The notes under the pieces: generated by a model
The model's input: the letters and a program-made list of their open reading frames with translations, nothing else
What the model was told of the DNA's origin: nothing
The model's database searches: none
In this document: piece by piece, positions 1 to 8,002 of the stretch
How the letters are laid out: every line of letters starts with the position of its first letter
Numbering within the stretch: position 1 is the stretch's first letter
Made by a program: the position numbers and the translations under genes
Origin: Chloroflexota bacterium
GTDB lineage: Bacteria > Chloroflexota > Limnocylindria > Limnocylindrales > CSP1-4
Length of the DNA: 41,981 bases
NCBI GenBank assembly: GCA_003141955.1
Contig: PLOC01000101.1
Location: 584 to 42,564 of the forward strand
Direction: 5' to 3'

Positions 1-1325
1 GCGGCGTTCTCCAGCAGGTTCGTCAGGATCTGGTCGACGAAGATCGCGTCGATGCGGACCGGCGGCAGATCGCCCGGAATCGAGACCTCTACCAGTGCGG
101 GCGCGAGCACCGGCGCCAGGCGTTCGACCACCGGGTCCACCAGGTCGGCCAGATCGTACAGCTCGAGCGACGGGTGGAGCGCTCCGCCCTCGATCCGGCT
201 CAGGTCGAGCATGTTGCGCACTAGGCGGCTCAGGCGCTGAGCCTCCGCGTCGATCGAGCCGGCGGCGGCACGCTCCTCGTCGCGCGTCCAGTCGACATCC
301 GGATCCATGAGATTCCCGGCGGCCGCCCGAATCGCGGCCAGCGGCGTGCGCAGGTCATGCGACACCGAATCGAGCAGGGCCGATTTGAGCGCGTCTCCCT
401 GGCGGGCGACCTCGGCGGCGGTAGCCTCGGCGGCGAGGCGGTCCCGTACGACCGACTGGCCGAGCTGGTCGGCGGCGGCGGCGAGCAGGCGGGTGTGCGA
501 GCGGCCGGGGAACGGGTCGCCGTGGACGCGGGTCGCCCACACCGAGCCGATGACCTCGCCGCCGGCCTGGATCGGGACGCGGAAGACGGTCACCGGTTCG
601 TCGCGCCCGCGCTCGTGGGCTTGCTCGCGGCCGGCCTCGCGGCCGGCCTCGTGGCCCGGCTCGTGGACTCGGCCCCCGGCTGTCTCCCGCACCCGAGTCC
701 AGCTCGGCTGCGCCTCCGCCGAGCTCGAGTGCACGACCCAGCGAGAGACGAGCGACGGCCGGGGCTCCCCGGGCCGGCTGTCGGCCACGACGCGTTCGGC
801 CGCGACGGACCCGCCCAAGCCGACCCAGACACGCTCCATCTCGGCCTCGCGCACCAGCCGGCTTGCCAGCAGCGGAGCCGCCTCGAGGGCGGTGGCCGCG
901 TTGGCAGCGTCGCGGCTCATGGCGAACATGGCGCGAGCCTCGGAGGTGCGCAACTCCGCTTCGCGCCGGCGCTGGAGCTGCATGGCGCTGAGGCGGCCGA
1001 TCGCGATCGCCACGACCAGGAAGAGCAGCAGATCCAGCCACTCCTCCGGCGCGGCGACGGAGAAGGTGTAGAGCGGCTTCACGAAGAAGAAGTCGTATGT
1101 GAGGAACGAGGCGACGGAGGTTGCGATGGCGAGCCGGCTGCCGTACGCCATGCCGACGGCCACTACTGGCAGCAGGTATACGATCGAGGCGTCGGGCACC
1201 TTGAGCGTGTGAACGATGACGGCGGCGAGCGCCGTCGTCAGCACCAGTCCGACGCCCGCCACCGCCAGCCCCCCGAGCGACGGGCGGCCTGGTCGCGCGA
1301 TGGAGATGCGGGCTCGGCTAAGCAC
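1..1325 (-). CDS. KdpD-like (DUF4118) sensor histidine kinase, 3' end cut by window edge
   Basis: A membrane sensor kinase expected to autophosphorylate on His and pass phosphate to an OmpR-type regulator. The reading frame is open from the left edge to a GTG at 1325, with an upstream in-frame stop at 1364. Its N-terminus has several hydrophobic helices and the DUF4118 signature YDFFFVKPLYTF (around 1065-1100), closely matching the kinase at 3875-5488. A GAF-like region and the H-box SVSHDLRTPLA (around 340-370) follow. The sequence leaves the window just after the N-box LLENA, so the ATP-binding G-boxes lie outside. It lacks the N-terminal KdpD and Usp domains of full-length KdpD. The linker contains a short duplicated charged segment (EAGREAGRE) from a 12-base tandem repeat near 626-650. 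Its regulator gene is probably just left of the window. The GTG start has only a weak ribosome binding site, so the exact start is uncertain. Confidence 0.85.
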   Translation of the reverse strand, partial: MLSRARISIARPGRPSLGGLAVAGVGLVLTTALAAVIVHTLKVPDASIVYLLPVVAVGMAYGSRLAIATSVASFLTYDFFFVKPLYTFSVAAPEEWLDLLLFLVVAIAIGRLSAMQLQRRREAELRTSEARAMFAMSRDAANAATALEAAPLLASRLVREAEMERVWVGLGGSVAAERVVADSRPGEPRPSLVSRWVVHSSSAEAQPSWTRVRETAGGRVHEPGHEAGREAGREQAHERGRDEPVTVFRVPIQAGGEVIGSVWATRVHGDPFPGRSHTRLLAAAADQLGQSVVRDRLAAEATAAEVARQGDALKSALLDSVSHDLRTPLAAIRAAAGNLMDPDVDWTRDEERAAAGSIDAEAQRLSRLVRNMLDLSRIEGGALHPSLELYDLADLVDPVVERLAPVLAPALVEVSIPGDLPPVRIDAIFVDQILTNLLENA

Positions 1326-1497: not shown

Positions 1498-1860
1498 ATG
1501 ACTCAGAACTTCGATGCTGCCGAGGAACGAGCACGCCTTGCCGCCGCAGACCTCTCGGCCGCTGCCAACGATGTCATAAAGCGGCACTCGATCAGCTGGC
1601 GAGACGCGCGGGACGAGGTGGACTTCGCGGAGCTTTCGCGGTGGACCAGGTACTACCCGGAGCGGAAGTTGGACGATGCACGAGAGGACCTGGGCTTCGC
1701 GAGCCGAGCTCAGACTGAGATCGAGAGCATCTCGGCCTCTCTAGGAGCGTTGGCATCGGGGCGCAGCGGAGACGCCGGTGCGGCCGGCGCAGAGCTCACC
1801 GGCCGTCTCGCCGTCCTGGCCGCCAATTGCGAGCGACGGGCGATTTACCTCAGGTCGTGA
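1498..1860 (+). CDS. Small hypothetical protein, 120 aa
   Basis: I do not recognise a family. The start is well supported: GGAGG at 1485-1489 lies 8 bases before ATG. The protein is soluble-looking, with no signal peptide or membrane segment. It is rich in Ala, Glu, Arg and Asp, with probable amphipathic helices in the first half and in residues 60-118. A Trp/Tyr/Pro-containing stretch (SRWTRYYPERK) in the middle may be a conserved core. The gene is divergent from kinase 1, with the candidate Kdp-type box between them, so co-regulation with that kinase is possible. It converges on the gene ending at 1881, with only 20 bases between them. Function unknown. Confidence 0.6.
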   Translation: MTQNFDAAEERARLAAADLSAAANDVIKRHSISWRDARDEVDFAELSRWTRYYPERKLDDAREDLGFASRAQTEIESISASLGALASGRSGDAGAAGAELTGRLAVLAANCERRAIYLRS

Positions 1861-1880: not shown

Positions 1881-2915
1881 TCAGATCCACCGCACGGCGG
1901 GTCCGAACGCTCGCCCCATCGCCTCGACGAGGCGTGGATCGAGCGGCAACTCGACGGAGGAGCAGTCCTCGACCCGTACCTGGTCCGGGGCAAGGTGCAC
2001 TGTCAAAGCGCGGCCGTCCCAGCTGAGTGAGTCCAGATGCTGACGCGGCACTGCCAGAAGGTCGATCCCATACCGGGCGAAGTCGACACTCGCGGAGGGC
2101 TCGTTCGCGATCACCAGCTCCCTTGACCCGAGGACGGCGACACCGGAGGGTGGACCCGTACGGCCACGGCGGATCCGGGCGACGTCGCCGGCGGCGATCA
2201 CGACCGGCTCGCGCAGGTTGGGCCGAACGGTCGGATAGTCGAACACCGCCTGCCACCTGAACGGCAGATCGGACTGTCGCATCTGTTCGCTCCGAGGATC
2301 GAGCCACAGGAACCCGGATTCGACCGGGAAGTCCTTGCGCGCCAGCTGGCCTCGGAGGTCGCGCAGGTTCTCTTGCAGGTCGTCTCGGTAGACCGAGTTA
2401 TACCGGACGACGAGCTGGGCATTCGCGGCGAGGAGCCGCACCCGGCCATAGAGCAGGATCGAGCGATCGTCGACCGCGATAAGCCGATCGATGGGAATCG
2501 ACGAGACCCGACCGCCGGGGCAGTCGTCGACCCAGAGGGCGACGTCCTTGACGCCGAAACCGAGGACCCTGGCCGGCGTGATGACGCAATGCCTGGGGGA
2601 GACGAGACGAGTCGTCTTCGGGACGATGAACAGGCGCTCGAGGGGGAGCGGGCCGCAATCGACCTCCAGAGCCGACCGCGCCGACGGTGGCACATCCTCC
2701 GGCCGCGAGGGGCGGAACGGAGGGCCAGGTGGCCGGCCGCCGATCTTGTACCGGTCCCGCGACGAGACCGGTATCTCCCCGGGTTCAGCCGGGTCGGTCA
2801 AGGACCAACGAGAGCCCGGGGTCAGCCGCCCTCTGAGTCGAGTCCATCTCCTTTCCGGCGAAGAATAGGAACTCGATGGCCCAGGTCCGGGGAGGGTCCT
2901 CATGAGGTAAAGCAT
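1881..2915 (-). CDS. Conserved-looking hypothetical protein, about 344 aa
   Basis: I do not recognise a family. The frame is open up to 3050, but the part upstream of the ATG at 2915 looks non-coding, so I place the start at 2915 or at the nearby ATG at 2903. Both are tentative. The protein has no membrane segment or signal peptide. Its body (around residues 50-340) alternates hydrophobic beta-like stretches with charged loops, for example VLGFGVKDVALWVDDCPGG and SVDFARYGIDLLAVP, which would suit a largely beta-sheet soluble protein. The N-terminal 40 residues are Pro/Ser/Arg-rich and probably disordered. It lies alone between the tRNA fragment (3107) and the convergent small gene (1860), and its origin may be tied to the integration history suggested by that fragment. 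Confidence 0.5.
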   Translation of the reverse strand: MLYLMRTLPGPGPSSSYSSPERRWTRLRGRLTPGSRWSLTDPAEPGEIPVSSRDRYKIGGRPPGPPFRPSRPEDVPPSARSALEVDCGPLPLERLFIVPKTTRLVSPRHCVITPARVLGFGVKDVALWVDDCPGGRVSSIPIDRLIAVDDRSILLYGRVRLLAANAQLVVRYNSVYRDDLQENLRDLRGQLARKDFPVESGFLWLDPRSEQMRQSDLPFRWQAVFDYPTVRPNLREPVVIAAGDVARIRRGRTGPPSGVAVLGSRELVIANEPSASVDFARYGIDLLAVPRQHLDSLSWDGRALTVHLAPDQVRVEDCSSVELPLDPRLVEAMGRAFGPAVRWI

Positions 2916-3106
2916 GCCCGACCCACCCCGTTTCTGCCGACTGGCGACGGAGGCAGGGGCGGCCAGGGCCGGCAAATGCTGGCCACGGCCTCGTTCGACC
3001 AGATCGACGGGCTGGGGATGCACGAGACGACCGTCTCTCTCAGCGCGCACGCGGTCCGCAACGGGGTGGGGGCGGTGATGCCGGCTGAGCTGCGATTACC
3101 CGTATG

Positions 3107-3146
3107 TGGTCGGGGCGAGAGGACTTGAACCTCCGACCTTGCGGGA
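3107..3146 (-). pseudogene. tRNA 3' fragment (probably tRNA-Pro), possible att site remnant
   Basis: Read on the minus strand, this is the 3' half of a tRNA. It has the 3' anticodon-stem strand CCGCA, variable loop AGGTC, a T-arm GGAGG-TTCAAGT-CCTCT whose five pairs all form (one G-U), acceptor strand CGCCCCG, discriminator A and encoded CCA. The acceptor and T-arm resemble bacterial tRNA-Pro. The 5' half is absent: immediately upstream is the stop codon and coding sequence of the response regulator (stop at 3147). A 3' tRNA piece starting near the anticodon loop is the typical footprint left by a tyrosine integrase that used the tRNA gene as attachment site. No integrase and no intact tRNA-Pro are visible in the window. 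Confidence 0.7.
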
Positions 3147-3878
3147 TCAGGCGGGTCCTGGGGGCGGCACTTCGCGGAGCGAGTCGCCGTCGGCGACGCG
3201 ATAGCCGATGCCGGGCTCGGTCTCGATCAGGCCTTCGAGCGAGACGTCGCTGACGGCCGAGAGCTTGCGGCGCAGGCGATTGACGTACACGTGTAGGTAG
3301 GTGCTTTCCTCGGCGTAGGCCAGGCCCCAGACCGCGCGCAGCAGCCGGGCCTTGGTGAGGACCCGGCCCTGGTTCGAGAGCAGCACCTTGAGCAGCTCGT
3401 ACTCGCGTGGGGTCAGGCGGACCGGCGTGCCCGCAACCCTGACCTCGCGGCGCACCTGATCGAGCTCGATCGGCCCGAGCCGCAGGCAGCCCGCGGCGTC
3501 CGCGTCGGGTCCGCCAGCGCGCCGCAGCACGGCCCGGATCCGGGCGTTCAGCTCGTCGGTGGCGAACGGCTTGGTCAGATAGTCGTCGGCGCCCGCCTCG
3601 AGGCCGCCGATCTTGTCCCGTTCGTCGCCCCGAGCCGAGAGGATGATGATCGGCGTCGTGGCTTCGCGCCGGATGCGCCTGATGACGTCGACGCCATCGA
3701 GATCCGGCAGGCCGAGGTCCAGCAGCACCAGATCGGCCCGGTGCGCGTCCCAGAGACGCATCGCCTCCTTCGCCGTGGCGGCCTCGAAGACGTCGTAGCC
3801 GCGCCGGGTCAGGTACGCAGCCAGGGTTCGTCGCGCCCCGTCCTCATCCTCGACGAGAAGGATTGCCGGCCCGCTCAT
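3147..3878 (-). CDS. OmpR/KdpE-family response regulator
   Basis: A DNA-binding response regulator of 243 aa. The receiver domain (residues 4-118) shows the acidic pocket E10/D11, phosphoacceptor D54 in LVLLDLGLPD, S81 and K103 (LTKPF). The C-terminal winged helix (around 130-230) has the OmpR-type LTPREYELLKVL and VYVNRLRRKL motifs. Its ATG overlaps the stop codon of the upstream kinase by 4 bases (ATGA, 3875-3878), so the two are translationally coupled and almost certainly partners. The pairing with a DUF4118 kinase points to a KdpE-like role in potassium or osmotic control. No kdpFABC pump genes are in the window; the nearest plausible target is the divergent KimA-type transporter unit. 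The last codons abut the tRNA fragment. Confidence 0.93.
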   Translation of the reverse strand: MSGPAILLVEDEDGARRTLAAYLTRRGYDVFEAATAKEAMRLWDAHRADLVLLDLGLPDLDGVDVIRRIRREATTPIIILSARGDERDKIGGLEAGADDYLTKPFATDELNARIRAVLRRAGGPDADAAGCLRLGPIELDQVRREVRVAGTPVRLTPREYELLKVLLSNQGRVLTKARLLRAVWGLAYAEESTYLHVYVNRLRRKLSAVSDVSLEGLIETEPGIGYRVADGDSLREVPPPGPA

Positions 3879-5488
3879 GCCATCTCGCCCGAGGGTGGGG
3901 CCGAAACCCGGTCGGCGGGTATGGCCGTGGGATCGGCCGTCTGCTCGGGGACGAATGCCCGGCGGAGCCGGACGTCCACGTGCAGGCCGCCGAGCTCGCT
4001 GCGGCAGGCCGACACCTCGCCCTCCATTGCCCGGGTCAGGCCCTCGACGACGGTCAGGCCGATGCCCATTCCCCGCCGCTGCGCCTCGCCGGGCGGTCCG
4101 GCCTGGTAGAACTTCTCGAACAGGTGCGGCAGAGCGGCGTCCGGCACACCGCGCCCGTCATCCTCGACGCTGACCTGCACGAGCCCGTCGTCCAGGTCGC
4201 AGCCGCGCACGCGGATCGTTTCGCCGCCGTATCGGATTGCGTTCTCGAGCAGGTTGGCCAGAACCTGGCCCAGGTACAGCTCGTCCGCCAGCACCGGCGA
4301 GAGGGAATCGGGCAGCTCGACGAGGATGCGCTTGCCCGGATCGGGTCGGGCCCGCTTGACTGCCTGACGGACCACGTCCTCGAGGTCGCACGGCTCCAGC
4401 TCCGGCTTGAGGGCACCGCCTTCGATGCGGCTCAGGTCGAGCAGGTTCCGGACCAGCCTGCCCATCCGCTCTGCCTCCGCGTCGATCGCCAGGAACGCCT
4501 CCCGGTGGTCGTCCTCGGACCACTTCACTGACTCGTCGAGCATGCTGCCGGCCGCCGCCCGGATCGTCGCCAGCGGCGTGCGCAGGTCGTGGGAAACGGA
4601 GTCGAGCAGGGCCGTCTTCAGGGCCTCGCTCTGGCGGGCGATCTCGGCGCTGGTCGCTTCCTGGGTCAGCCGGTCGCGGACGATGGCCTGGCCGAGCTGG
4701 TCCGCCGCCGCGGACAGGATTCTCGTCTCGGCCCGATCGGGCTCCAGCTCGTTGCGCGCCCGGAGCGCCCACAGCGAGCCCAGGGTCTCGCCCGCCACTT
4801 CGATGCGGACCCGATGCAGCGCGGCGCGCGGAGCGCGCCGCGCACTCCCCGTCGCCACGTGAGCCCGGACCCAGCGCATCTGACCGTCCGGCCGGCGCTG
4901 CAGGACCACCTGCCAGCCCGGCATGGGGAGGGGCTCGGACGCGGCCGTGTCGGCGAGGGAGCGTTCCTCGGACGGGTTCGCGCCCAGGCTGACCCAAACC
5001 CGATCCATGGCCGTGATCATCTCCAGCCGCGTAACCACGGCCGGGGCCGCCTCGGCGACGGTCCGGGTCGCCGCGAGCACCCCCGTGATGGCGTGGAGCG
5101 CTTCTGCCTCGCGGGCCCGGTCCGCGGCCTCCCTCGCTCGCTCCGCCTGCAGTGCCGCCAGCCGACCGATCACAGAGGCGACGGCGAGCAGAAGGAGCAG
5201 GTTCAACCACTCGTCGGGGCTGTTGATGGTCAGGGTGTAGAGCGGCTGGACGAAGAGGAAGTCGTACAGCAGGAATGCCGCGACCGAGGTCAGCATCGCC
5301 GGCGCCGTGCCATAGCGCATGCCGACGGCGAGCACCGCCAGCAGGTAGACCGGCGCCGGGTAGGTCACGTGGATGCCGGCTCGAAGGAGGGCGATCGTCA
5401 GCGTGGAGGCGCCGAGCGCGGCAAGCGCCAGCGCGGCCATCCCGATCAGATCCGCTCGCCTGGGGAGCCTGACTCGCCAAAGATCCAT
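3875..5488 (-). CDS. KdpD-like (DUF4118) sensor histidine kinase
   Basis: Membrane sensor kinase of about 537 aa. The frame extends to 5749, but similarity to kinase 1 begins near an ATG at 5488, preceded directly by a GTG at 5491. Residues 12-110 form hydrophobic helices of the DUF4118 module (YDFLFVQPLYTL). A coiled linker and a GAF-like region (around 135-285) follow, then the H-box SVSHDLRTPLA, N-box LLENAIRYG, G1 box EDDGRGVP and G2 box GMGIGL. It lacks the KdpD turgor-sensing Usp domain, so it is a shortened KdpD-type sensor. It is first in a two-gene unit with the regulator at 3147-3878 and is divergent from the KimA-type unit, separated by 125 bases containing an 11-base-period direct repeat. 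It is a clear paralogue of the kinase at 1-1325. Confidence 0.92.
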   Translation of the reverse strand: MDLWRVRLPRRADLIGMAALALAALGASTLTIALLRAGIHVTYPAPVYLLAVLAVGMRYGTAPAMLTSVAAFLLYDFLFVQPLYTLTINSPDEWLNLLLLLAVASVIGRLAALQAERAREAADRAREAEALHAITGVLAATRTVAEAAPAVVTRLEMITAMDRVWVSLGANPSEERSLADTAASEPLPMPGWQVVLQRRPDGQMRWVRAHVATGSARRAPRAALHRVRIEVAGETLGSLWALRARNELEPDRAETRILSAAADQLGQAIVRDRLTQEATSAEIARQSEALKTALLDSVSHDLRTPLATIRAAAGSMLDESVKWSEDDHREAFLAIDAEAERMGRLVRNLLDLSRIEGGALKPELEPCDLEDVVRQAVKRARPDPGKRILVELPDSLSPVLADELYLGQVLANLLENAIRYGGETIRVRGCDLDDGLVQVSVEDDGRGVPDAALPHLFEKFYQAGPPGEAQRRGMGIGLTVVEGLTRAMEGEVSACRSELGGLHVDVRLRRAFVPEQTADPTAIPADRVSAPPSGEMA

Positions 5489-5539
5489 CACCGGGATCGT
5501 AGTCCCGTCAGTGGCGGTGGCGGCCCTTTTCGGTGGCTC

Positions 5540-5560
5540 TGTTGAGCGGATGTTGAGCGG
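5540..5560. promoter_or_regulatory. Direct-repeat operator candidate between kinase and KimA units
   Basis: The 10-mer TGTTGAGCGG occurs twice, at 5540-5549 and 5551-5560. This is an 11-base period, about one helical turn, the spacing typical of OmpR-family dimer sites. It lies 52 bases from the kinase start at 5488 and 54 bases from the divergent gene at 5614, so it could control both directions. A diverged copy is found at 1444-1461 beside the paralogous kinase. Binding by the regulator encoded at 3147-3878 is inferred. Confidence 0.5.
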
Positions 5561-5613
5561 CGGGACGCACCAGTTCGGGGTTTCCTCGTGGCCCCTCGGT
5601 CTAGGTTGAGGGT

Positions 5614-6015
5614 GTGACATTCGCTGAAAGCGTGCTAAGGCTGGTTCGGGCTGGATCTCGCGTCGATTCGGAGGGAGATCGGTCCCCGACCAAGGTCGCC
5701 CTTGCGGTGACGGCCGAGCCGACCGACAATTCCTTCGCGGTCGAACCATTCGCCGTGGACGATCAGGACGCCGAGCCGGCGCCGGAGTTGTCCCCGCTCG
5801 AGCCCGGCTTCGCCGACATCGAGGCCGCCGTGGCCCTGGTCGAGACCGGGTTGGCGACTCGGGTCGTGCTCACCGGCTTCCCATCGTGGCCCGGCCTGTT
5901 GTGGCAGGCCTACCAGCTCGCCGAAACCTCCAACGTAATGATCCTGCCGACCGTCGTCCGTCCCGGGGGCCGCGTGGACATCGTGATCGCGAGGGACACC
6001 CGCCCAGATGAGTGA
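5614..6015 (+). CDS. Hypothetical protein translationally coupled to KimA-type transporter
   Basis: Unrecognised protein of 133 aa starting at GTG. The N-terminal half is acidic and Pro-rich and probably flexible. The C-terminal half (around residues 65-128) looks like a small alpha/beta fold, with a helix (DIEAAVALVETG) followed by strands RVVLTGF and VDIVIARD. No membrane segment or signal peptide is visible. Its stop overlaps the start of the transporter by 8 bases (6008-6015), which implies co-expression and possibly a role in controlling transport. It sits at the promoter-proximal end of a unit divergent from the Kdp-like two-component genes. The ribosome binding site is weak and no other start is available in frame. 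Confidence 0.65.
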   Translation: MTFAESVLRLVRAGSRVDSEGDRSPTKVALAVTAEPTDNSFAVEPFAVDDQDAEPAPELSPLEPGFADIEAAVALVETGLATRVVLTGFPSWPGLLWQAYQLAETSNVMILPTVVRPGGRVDIVIARDTRPDE

Positions 6016-8002
6016 ACAACAACAACTGCGTGGCCGGAAATTGGGAGACCGGCGCGTCGTCGTTGATCGTCCACACGCCCGCTACTTCCGTTACGTCGCG
6101 CCCGGCGTCCTGGAGGCCAAGCTCGAAGCCCAGGCGCCGCGGACGGCCTACCAGCGTCGCATGGGCACTATCCGTGGCATCCTGTTTGGCCGGCCGCTCT
6201 CATCCGCCGCGGAGCTAAGCGAGCGCCTGCCCAAGTGGAAGGCCCTGCCGGTCTTCTCTTCGGACGTGATGTCCTCCGTCGCGTACGCGACCGGAGCCAT
6301 GATGCTCATCCTGGTCGGCGCGGGGCAGGACAGTTTCAAATACGTCCTGGGGCTGTCGGTCGTCGTCGTCGCCCTGCTGGTCATCGTCACCTTCAGCTAC
6401 CGCCAGACGATCCGGGCCTATCCCAACGGCGGCGGCAGCTACATCGTGGCCCACGCCAACCTGGGCGTACTGGCCGGCCTCACGGCCGCCGCATCGCTGC
6501 TCACCGACTACGTGCTGACCGTGGCGGTGAGCGTGTCGTCCGGCGTCCAGGCGCTCTACTCCGCCTTCCCGGCCATCTATGACTGGCGCGTACAGCTGAT
6601 CGCGCTCTCGATCCTGCTGGTAATGGTCGTGAACCTGCGCGGGCTTCGTGAGAGCGGCACGCTGTTCGCCAGCCCCACGTACATCTTCATCGGCTCGATG
6701 CTGCTGCTGATCACGGTCGGTGTGATCCGGTCGCTGACCGGTCACCTTCCTCAGGTCGAGAACGTCCCGGCCGTGACCGGCATGCCGGCGGAGACCATGG
6801 GCCTGTTCCTTCTCTGCAAGGCCTTCGCCAACGGCTGCTCGGCCATGACGGGTACCGAGGCGGTGGCCAACGGTGTTCCGGCATTCAAGCCGGTCGAGTG
6901 GAAGAACGCGCAGCAGACCATGATCATCATGGCCACCCTGCTCGGGATCATGTTCCTCGGCACGAGCTACCTGGCCGTCAACGTCGGGGCCCATCCGACG
7001 GGGTTCCAGGCCAACGGTGAGAGCGTGCTGTCGCAGGTCGGGCGGACGGTGTTCGGCGGCCCCGGTGTGCTCTACTACATCCTCCAGCTCTCGACGATGG
7101 GCATCCTGATCCTGGCTGCCCAGACCAGCTTCGCCGACTTCCCCCGCCTCTCATCGATCCTGGCCCGCGACGGCTTCTTCCCTCGCCAGTTCGCCCTGCG
7201 CGGCGAGAGGCTGGCCTTCAACTCCGGCATCGTCGCCCTGGCCCTGGTCTCGATCTTCCTGGTCGTCGCCTTCAACGGCTCGCCCGATCGCCTGATCGGC
7301 CTGTACGCGATCGGCGTCTTCACGTCGTTCACGCTGTCGCAATCGGGCATGGTCCGCCACTGGTTCAGCGGGCGCGGGCCGGGCTGGCGCCGCAGCGCCG
7401 TGATCAATGGCATCGGCGCGGTCGTCACTGCCATCGTGGTCGTGGTCATCGCCATCTCCAAGTTTGACCAGGGCGTGTGGATGATCATCATCGTGGTCCC
7501 GATCCTCATCTCCATGATGCTCTTCATCAAGCACGAGTACGCCCAGGAGGAGGTCGGGCTGGAGGTTCAGCCGGATGTCGTGTTCGGGCCGCCCCATCGC
7601 CGCCAGAGAGTGGTCGTGTCGGCCCAGGCCATGAGCCGGGCCGTGGTCCAGGCCGTGAAGGTCGGCGAGACGATGGGCGAGGAAGTGCAGCTGGTCCACG
7701 TGACGCTGGATCCGGCCGAGGGCGAGCATTTCCGCGAGCGAGTGGAGCGCCAGCTGCCGGGCGTTCGGGTCGTGCTGGTCGAGTCGCCGTACCGGGCCCT
7801 CGTTCGGCCGTTCGTGCGCTACCTGGAGGTTTCGCAGGCCGAGGATCCGGGCCGGCTCACGATCGTCCTGCTGCCGGAGCACCTGCCCCGCCACTGGTGG
7901 GACCGCATCCTGTACAACCAGAACGTGCATCGCATCCGGGCGGCGCTGGTCGGTCGCAAGGACTTCGTGGTGCTGGACACGCCCTACCGGCGAGAGGCGT
8001 AG
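6008..8002 (+). CDS. kimA: KimA-type potassium/proton symporter (APC superfamily)
   Basis: High-affinity K+ uptake permease of 664 aa. The family signature FSSDVMSSVAYAT (around residue 83) is followed by the conserved segments FSYRQTIRAYPNGGGSYIV and NLRGLRESGTLFA. By motif alignment, D86, Y93, D167, T171, T281 and E284 occupy the positions of the K+- and proton-handling residues described for Bacillus subtilis KimA. About twelve hydrophobic helices span roughly residues 80-510. A hydrophilic C-terminal domain (around 515-664) matches the cytosolic Usp-like domain of the family. It overlaps the small upstream gene by 8 bases. The neighbouring KdpD/KdpE-like pair supports a potassium role. 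I see no ydaO-type (c-di-AMP) riboswitch in the short upstream region. A general amino-acid permease is the less likely alternative. Confidence 0.88.
   Translation: MSEQQQLRGRKLGDRRVVVDRPHARYFRYVAPGVLEAKLEAQAPRTAYQRRMGTIRGILFGRPLSSAAELSERLPKWKALPVFSSDVMSSVAYATGAMMLILVGAGQDSFKYVLGLSVVVVALLVIVTFSYRQTIRAYPNGGGSYIVAHANLGVLAGLTAAASLLTDYVLTVAVSVSSGVQALYSAFPAIYDWRVQLIALSILLVMVVNLRGLRESGTLFASPTYIFIGSMLLLITVGVIRSLTGHLPQVENVPAVTGMPAETMGLFLLCKAFANGCSAMTGTEAVANGVPAFKPVEWKNAQQTMIIMATLLGIMFLGTSYLAVNVGAHPTGFQANGESVLSQVGRTVFGGPGVLYYILQLSTMGILILAAQTSFADFPRLSSILARDGFFPRQFALRGERLAFNSGIVALALVSIFLVVAFNGSPDRLIGLYAIGVFTSFTLSQSGMVRHWFSGRGPGWRRSAVINGIGAVVTAIVVVVIAISKFDQGVWMIIIVVPILISMMLFIKHEYAQEEVGLEVQPDVVFGPPHRRQRVVVSAQAMSRAVVQAVKVGETMGEEVQLVHVTLDPAEGEHFRERVERQLPGVRVVLVESPYRALVRPFVRYLEVSQAEDPGRLTIVLLPEHLPRHWWDRILYNQNVHRIRAALVGRKDFVVLDTPYRREA

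Follow-up and report, generated by a model that had tools for sequence, protein, structure and literature searches.

A short piece of a tRNA gene lies directly behind the stop codon of kdpE, a potassium-response regulator gene, in the Chloroflexota genome studied here. We asked which kind of integration event could have left it there, and on which side of it the mobile DNA lay. The stretch analysed, 41,981 nucleotides of a single contig, is called the window throughout, and its features are listed in Table 1. In a first-pass annotation of the letters the fragment had been read as the displaced 3′ end of a tRNA gene used by an integrase, with an element extending to its right (higher coordinates) and carrying much of the potassium locus as cargo.

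Table 1. Features of the window that bear on the origin of the tRNA fragment (LSR, large serine recombinase)
Feature	Position	Strand	Evidence
Second kdpD-like kinase	3..1325	-	73-93% identity with the second kdpD of sister species; marks the DNA to the left of the scar as chromosomal
ORF of no convincing family, possibly leftover element cargo	1498..1860	+	Phage_tail_T match only, sub-threshold
ORF of no family, possibly leftover element cargo	1881..2693	-	No Pfam or PHROG match; the compared loci contain no homologue
DNA homologous to the LSR end beside intact tRNA-Pro(CGG) in G019	2950..3137	+	158 identical of about 187
C-terminal 50-codon remnant of an LSR	2976..3128	+	70-78% identical to the G019 LSR C-terminus
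tRNA-Pro(CGG) 3′ fragment, putative recombinase attachment site of attL type	3107..3138	-	31/32 against intact tRNA-Pro(CGG) of sister species; same junction in G014
17-bp core and right half-site TCCTCTCGCCCCGACCA	3107..3123	-	Common to all array junctions; control tRNA-Pro(TGG) 3′ end occurs 0-2 times
Putative attB-type left half-site GGTCGGAGGTTCAAG	3124..3138	-	14/15 against the tRNA left half
kdpE response regulator, core	3147..3878	-	Pfam Response_reg and Trans_reg_C; genus orthologues; synteny
kdpD-like sensor kinase, core	3875..5749	-	DUF4118, HisKA, HATPase; synteny
Amino-acid-permease-fold transporter, core	6008..8002	+	Pfam; 84-92% identical and colinear in 6 relatives

The fragment derives from tRNA-Pro(CGG)

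The fragment, GGTCGGAGGTTCAAGTCCTCTCGCCCCGACCA, reads from 3138 to 3107 on the minus strand and consists of half of the variable loop (GGTC), the T-arm, the acceptor 3′ strand and CCA. It was compared with the intact tRNA-Pro of anticodon CGG that ARAGORN detected in many sister genomes, and the single mismatch to the 3′ end of this tRNA falls at 3124, where the sister genomes read TTCAAA. Identity starts at 3139, within the variable loop and 8 bases from the kdpE stop codon. Positions 3140-3146 (TCCCGCA on the minus strand, GACGATG in the tRNA) do not match, and the anticodon-stem strand that had been listed among the parts is therefore not there. No 5′ half is present beside the fragment, in agreement with the first-pass annotation, and neither ARAGORN, run on the window, nor Rfam found a tRNA at this position, as expected for half a gene. 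The assignment to proline also held and could be narrowed to Pro(CGG), since the T-stems of the genome's own intact tRNA-Pro(TGG) and tRNA-Pro(GGG) genes differ from the fragment. A chance match is excluded by the length of the match, 32 nt, together with the occurrence of the same kdpE|fragment junction in a sister MAG (G014, contig C231).

The native tRNA-Pro(CGG) gene of this genome sits at the extreme end of contig C113 and has an S9 peptidase as its upstream neighbour, as in the native context. Because the contig end cuts it within the T-stem, the window copy is the sole match in the whole-genome pattern search, where 0 further full copies were found within 3 mismatches (0 also for the reversed pattern, used as control). 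A tRNA-Pro with the same 3′ region does thus exist elsewhere, as had been anticipated, truncated on C113 and intact in sister species.

The potassium locus on the right is core chromosome

An element reaching rightwards from the fragment would have the fragment as its displaced 3′ end (attR), the potassium locus as its content, and an intact tRNA-Pro with an integrase at its far right end. Such an element would be in keeping with the orientation of the fragment and with the native tRNA-Pro(CGG) on C113, but not with the DNA that follows on the right. In the sister genome G002 (C19), kdpE, kdpD, the transporter, which we take to be KimA-like, an RND pump and the genes that follow, on to an SDR gene at 41 kb, have the same order and relative orientation, and colinearity with G010 (C57) reaches about 34 kb, with most genes 65-93% identical in these two genomes. 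The 38 kb to the right are thus colinear core, and the fragment itself is absent behind kdpE in both. In these two, as in other relatives, different sequence comes after kdpE, with a receiver-domain gene and kdpA-B-C a few genes further on. (A tRNA-like sequence behind the G002 kdpE was not accepted as tRNA-derived; its alignment is weak, with a score of 19 over 31 bases.) As the locus from kdpE to 41 kb is colinear in two sister genomes that lack the fragment, we judge it by synteny to be core chromosome and not cargo. A conserved core context of the kdp genes in related genomes is the very outcome that the first-pass annotation had named as speaking against mobile cargo, and without this correction of direction the potassium-response genes would be filed as such.

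Pfam gave no integrase domain anywhere in the window, and the 13 matches to the tyrosine integrase family PF00589 in the genome include 0 on this contig, which also argues against an element on the right. A tyrosine integrase had been considered as the source of the fragment since identity starts in the variable loop; this candidate was dropped, as the fragment is joined to an LSR gene instead.

A recombinase remnant adjoins the fragment from the left

The LSR remnant on the left of the fragment ends in ...PVCGRGERT, with its stop codon inside the fragment. In G019 a complete LSR of 467 aa lies directly behind an intact tRNA-Pro(CGG) in the same geometry, ending in ...PVYGRGERI within the tRNA, and the LSR C-terminus is encoded across the tRNA 3′ end, beside an intact tRNA-Pro(CGG), in G012, G013, G021 and G030 as well. 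Full-length relatives match PF00239 (Resolvase) and PF07508 (Recombinase), as seen for G019, and the PHROG 95 integrase family, whereas the window keeps only the C-terminal 50 aa. An attachment site adjoining the recombinase gene, as expected of an LSR element, is found in the window and in the relatives alike, the LSR stop codon lying inside the tRNA sequence. Homology to the G019 LSR end runs continuously through the fragment and breaks off after about 187 bases, so the LSR of the window is truncated. With the remnant to the left of the fragment, the integrase end of the element points to lower coordinates.

The continuity of this homology also bears on whether the fragment has anything to do with mobile DNA. 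A tRNA-like terminator of kdpE, or a duplicated tRNA gene in decay, could be suspected from T-arm-like sequence behind kdpE in G003 and G016, where there is no LSR. Such an origin is very improbable, because LSR homology runs straight out of the fragment, an identity of 158/187 excludes a chance alignment, and identity to the tRNA breaks at the same position in several unrelated loci.

Further left, the second kdpD-like kinase leads into a second kdpE. The contig begins 583 bases ahead of the window and cuts this gene off. Within the 3.1 kb to the left of the fragment we found no known class of attP-left half-site and no convincing motif that would mark the far (left-hand) end of the element.

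The tRNA-Pro(CGG) 3′ end is a repeated cassette junction in the genus

In a sample of 12 genomes of the genus, the 17-bp 3′ end of tRNA-Pro(CGG), counted exactly and with one mismatch allowed, had 1-15 exact copies per genome, while reversed controls were near zero and the corresponding 17-mer of tRNA-Pro(TGG) occurred 0-2 times per genome. Outside the genus, 0-2 copies were found in genus g18 of the same order, and 13 in G098, one genome of another genus. Many copies follow one another on the same strand at intervals of about 0.6-13 kb, for example in G012 (C64, L123), G001 (C69, L161), G017 (C75, L162) and on contig C82 of the genome studied here (L160, L092). The cassettes between these junctions hold one to several genes each, among them AbiE-type and YoeB/Phd toxin-antitoxin pairs, a PIN-domain protein, an arginase, an aldo-keto reductase, an MFS transporter and TetR regulators. 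Some cassettes start with an LSR, such as three in tandem behind the tRNA in G012 (C53), and many have none; the latter may move in trans.

Taken together, the repeated junctions look like an LSR-driven cassette array system that extends across the genus, and this is a more novel observation than the scar in the window. Our search, confined to the open literature, found no description of tRNA-Pro LSR arrays.

The fragment is a putative attL-type junction

Bases immediately left of the 17-mer fall into a few recurring classes, e.g. CACCCGTATAGTGTCGG or GGGACATTCAGGTCGCTACGGTCGG, which we read as putative attP-left halves. The left half of the tRNA gene itself, GGTCGGAGGTTCAAA, which would be attB-left, is identical at 15/15 positions in 25/26 intact tRNAs and at 14/15 in the remaining one. 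Scored against it, the window reaches 14/15, compared with 4-9 for most array junctions. On these grounds the fragment is classified as attB-left joined to attP-right, that is, as a putative attL-type junction and not a displaced attR end, the labels attL, attB-left and attP-left being derived from the sequence pattern.

Both an attB-type left half and core DNA on the right disagree with a classical displaced-3′-end island, where the fragment is attR, an attP-left half is expected at the junction and the element lies on the 5′ side of the fragment. With the LSR remnant on the left and the attB-like half-site on the kdpE side, an element at higher coordinates is contradicted, and the rightward reading, with its far tRNA and integrase, appears highly implausible. 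What stands of the proposed integrase footprint is that the fragment is an integration scar tied to an integrase that uses tRNA-Pro; its orientation had been taken the wrong way round.

Probable insertion at a secondary site behind kdpE

We consider it probable, at roughly 70%, that the fragment is the attL-type scar of an LSR element that inserted at a secondary site behind kdpE and whose LSR has since decayed. In elements of this family the LSR stop codon would be followed directly by the tRNA-Pro(CGG) 3′ end, a duplicate of the target's right half; they would usually insert into the tRNA-Pro(CGG) gene, which is thereby rebuilt. Here, insertion just behind the kdpE stop codon would have set a chromosomal attB-like left half (AAGGTCGGAGGTTCAAG) beside the right half of the element (TCCTCTCGCCCCGACCA) and its LSR, with the element to the left of the fragment, at lower coordinates. 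A later deletion would have removed the LSR except for its last 50 codons and left the far end of the element beyond recognition. The fragment, the LSR remnant, their polarity, the core synteny on the right and the identical junction in G014 are observed; the LSR is the presumed agent, and insertion at a secondary site, in preference to rearrangement of an array located at the tRNA, is what the sequences suggest.

Similar sites behind other core genes are consistent with this reading. An attB-like site lies directly behind the stop codon of acyP (acylphosphatase, next to holB, DNA polymerase III delta′) in G017 (C114, L083/L118), where an LSR follows it, and in G001 (C53, L192), and in degenerate form in G004 (C231, L175); most other sister genomes have none behind acyP. 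The second kdpE (kdpE2) has a site of the same type in G012 and a degenerate one in G016. Behind kdpE, G014 has the junction of the window at a contig end, with a different element and right flank (kdpE 95% identical). The G003 kdpE is the closest (96%), and its 3′ site is similar up to TCC and then differs, with a related left half, another right half and no recombinase, making it a candidate empty site. Such a distribution fits an element that now and then uses attB-like sequence following a stop codon. For the sister genomes draft assemblies, many of them incomplete, were compared, and several of these key junctions lie close to contig ends.

T-arm-like sequences just behind the kdpE stop codon, with no recombinase, were seen in G003 (L095) and G016 (L105) and may be either unoccupied pseudo-attB sites or scars of old insertions.

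Three points tell against insertion at a secondary site. The first is that no far end of the element was found in the 3.1 kb on the left. Next, the match of the left half to the tRNA is closer than would be expected of an ordinary pseudo-site, about 0.1 such sites being expected per genome by a rough hand estimate from base composition. In addition, the kdp locus is rearranged in this genome, and the scar could have been moved with it. The site may instead have formed in the tRNA-Pro(CGG) island, as a junction of tandem LSR cassettes, and have come to lie beside kdpE when an inversion or deletion, perhaps recombinase-mediated, took place later. Tandem LSR arrays of this kind do lie behind the tRNA in G012 (C53), and the kdpFABC operon of the genome studied here is on another contig, C23, in a gene order suggesting that the kdp segment running from F4 to kdpD2 is inverted relative to G012. 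Such a rearrangement keeps some weight because of this displaced operon and gene order, but it is unlikely, as the same kdpE|fragment junction recurs in G014 and comparable sites also follow unrelated core genes.

Ahead of the kdp operon, upstream of F4, we observed a conserved pair, GTTTAGAC..GTGTTTAGC, on C23 (L111), in G003 (C114, L116) and in G014 (C226, L115), which is possibly a KdpE binding site.

Relation to known systems

Secondary chromosomal (pseudo-attB) sites are documented for the phiBT1 recombinase (PMC5937489), and multi-target LSRs are known among other family members (PMC10083194). The elements described here resemble phiBT1/phiC31-type elements in the Resolvase N-terminal and Recombinase domains, in an att site adjoining the recombinase gene and in secondary sites; they differ in their main target, a tRNA-Pro(CGG) 3′ end overlapping the LSR stop codon, and in accumulating in arrays. 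In SCC and the Enterococcus cassette chromosome (ECC), several att sites delimit composite islands, with fewer than five att matches per genome reported for ECC (PMC6222049). These cassettes, moved by Ccr serine recombinases, likewise pair an LSR with a target at the end of a conserved gene, again its 3′ end, and with several att sites. However, ccr insertion takes place at the rlmH 3′ end, while here the target is tRNA-Pro(CGG) together with sites behind other genes, the LSR is different, the units are many more and smaller, and there are several chromosomal anchor sites. SGI1 has a second, intergenic attB, and tandem arrays form at both of its sites (PMC2297512), which parallels the secondary site and arrays seen here, but it uses an unrelated integrase and thdF, and its tandem copies are identical where the cassettes here are varied.

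Like the arrays described here, integrons consist of short, varied cassettes between recombination sites and include toxin-antitoxin genes. In place of the tyrosine integrase intI and attC sites, the recombinase at the sites described here is a serine recombinase and the sites are tRNA 3′ ends; the units are often multi-gene and some have their own recombinase. It is conceivable, and we suggest it only tentatively, that the arrays are a serine-recombinase counterpart of the integron, in which a few LSRs move many short cassettes, most of them recombinase-less, into arrays at tRNA-Pro(CGG) and at several secondary anchors behind core genes (kdpE, kdpE2, acyP), the window fragment being one such secondary anchor. 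The scar also points to what would be a genus-wide system, in which an LSR family causes the 3′ end of a tRNA to recur as the junction between cassettes and naturally occurring attB variants follow several core genes. Should the cassettes prove mobile in trans, a serine recombinase would be driving an integron-like system here, which would also supply a natural data set of LSR attB and attP half-sites.

In the genome studied here a second tRNA-targeting type of LSR was also observed: on C57 (46019-47487, L113), another LSR lies directly behind a tRNA-Arg(CCG) gene, in antisense orientation.
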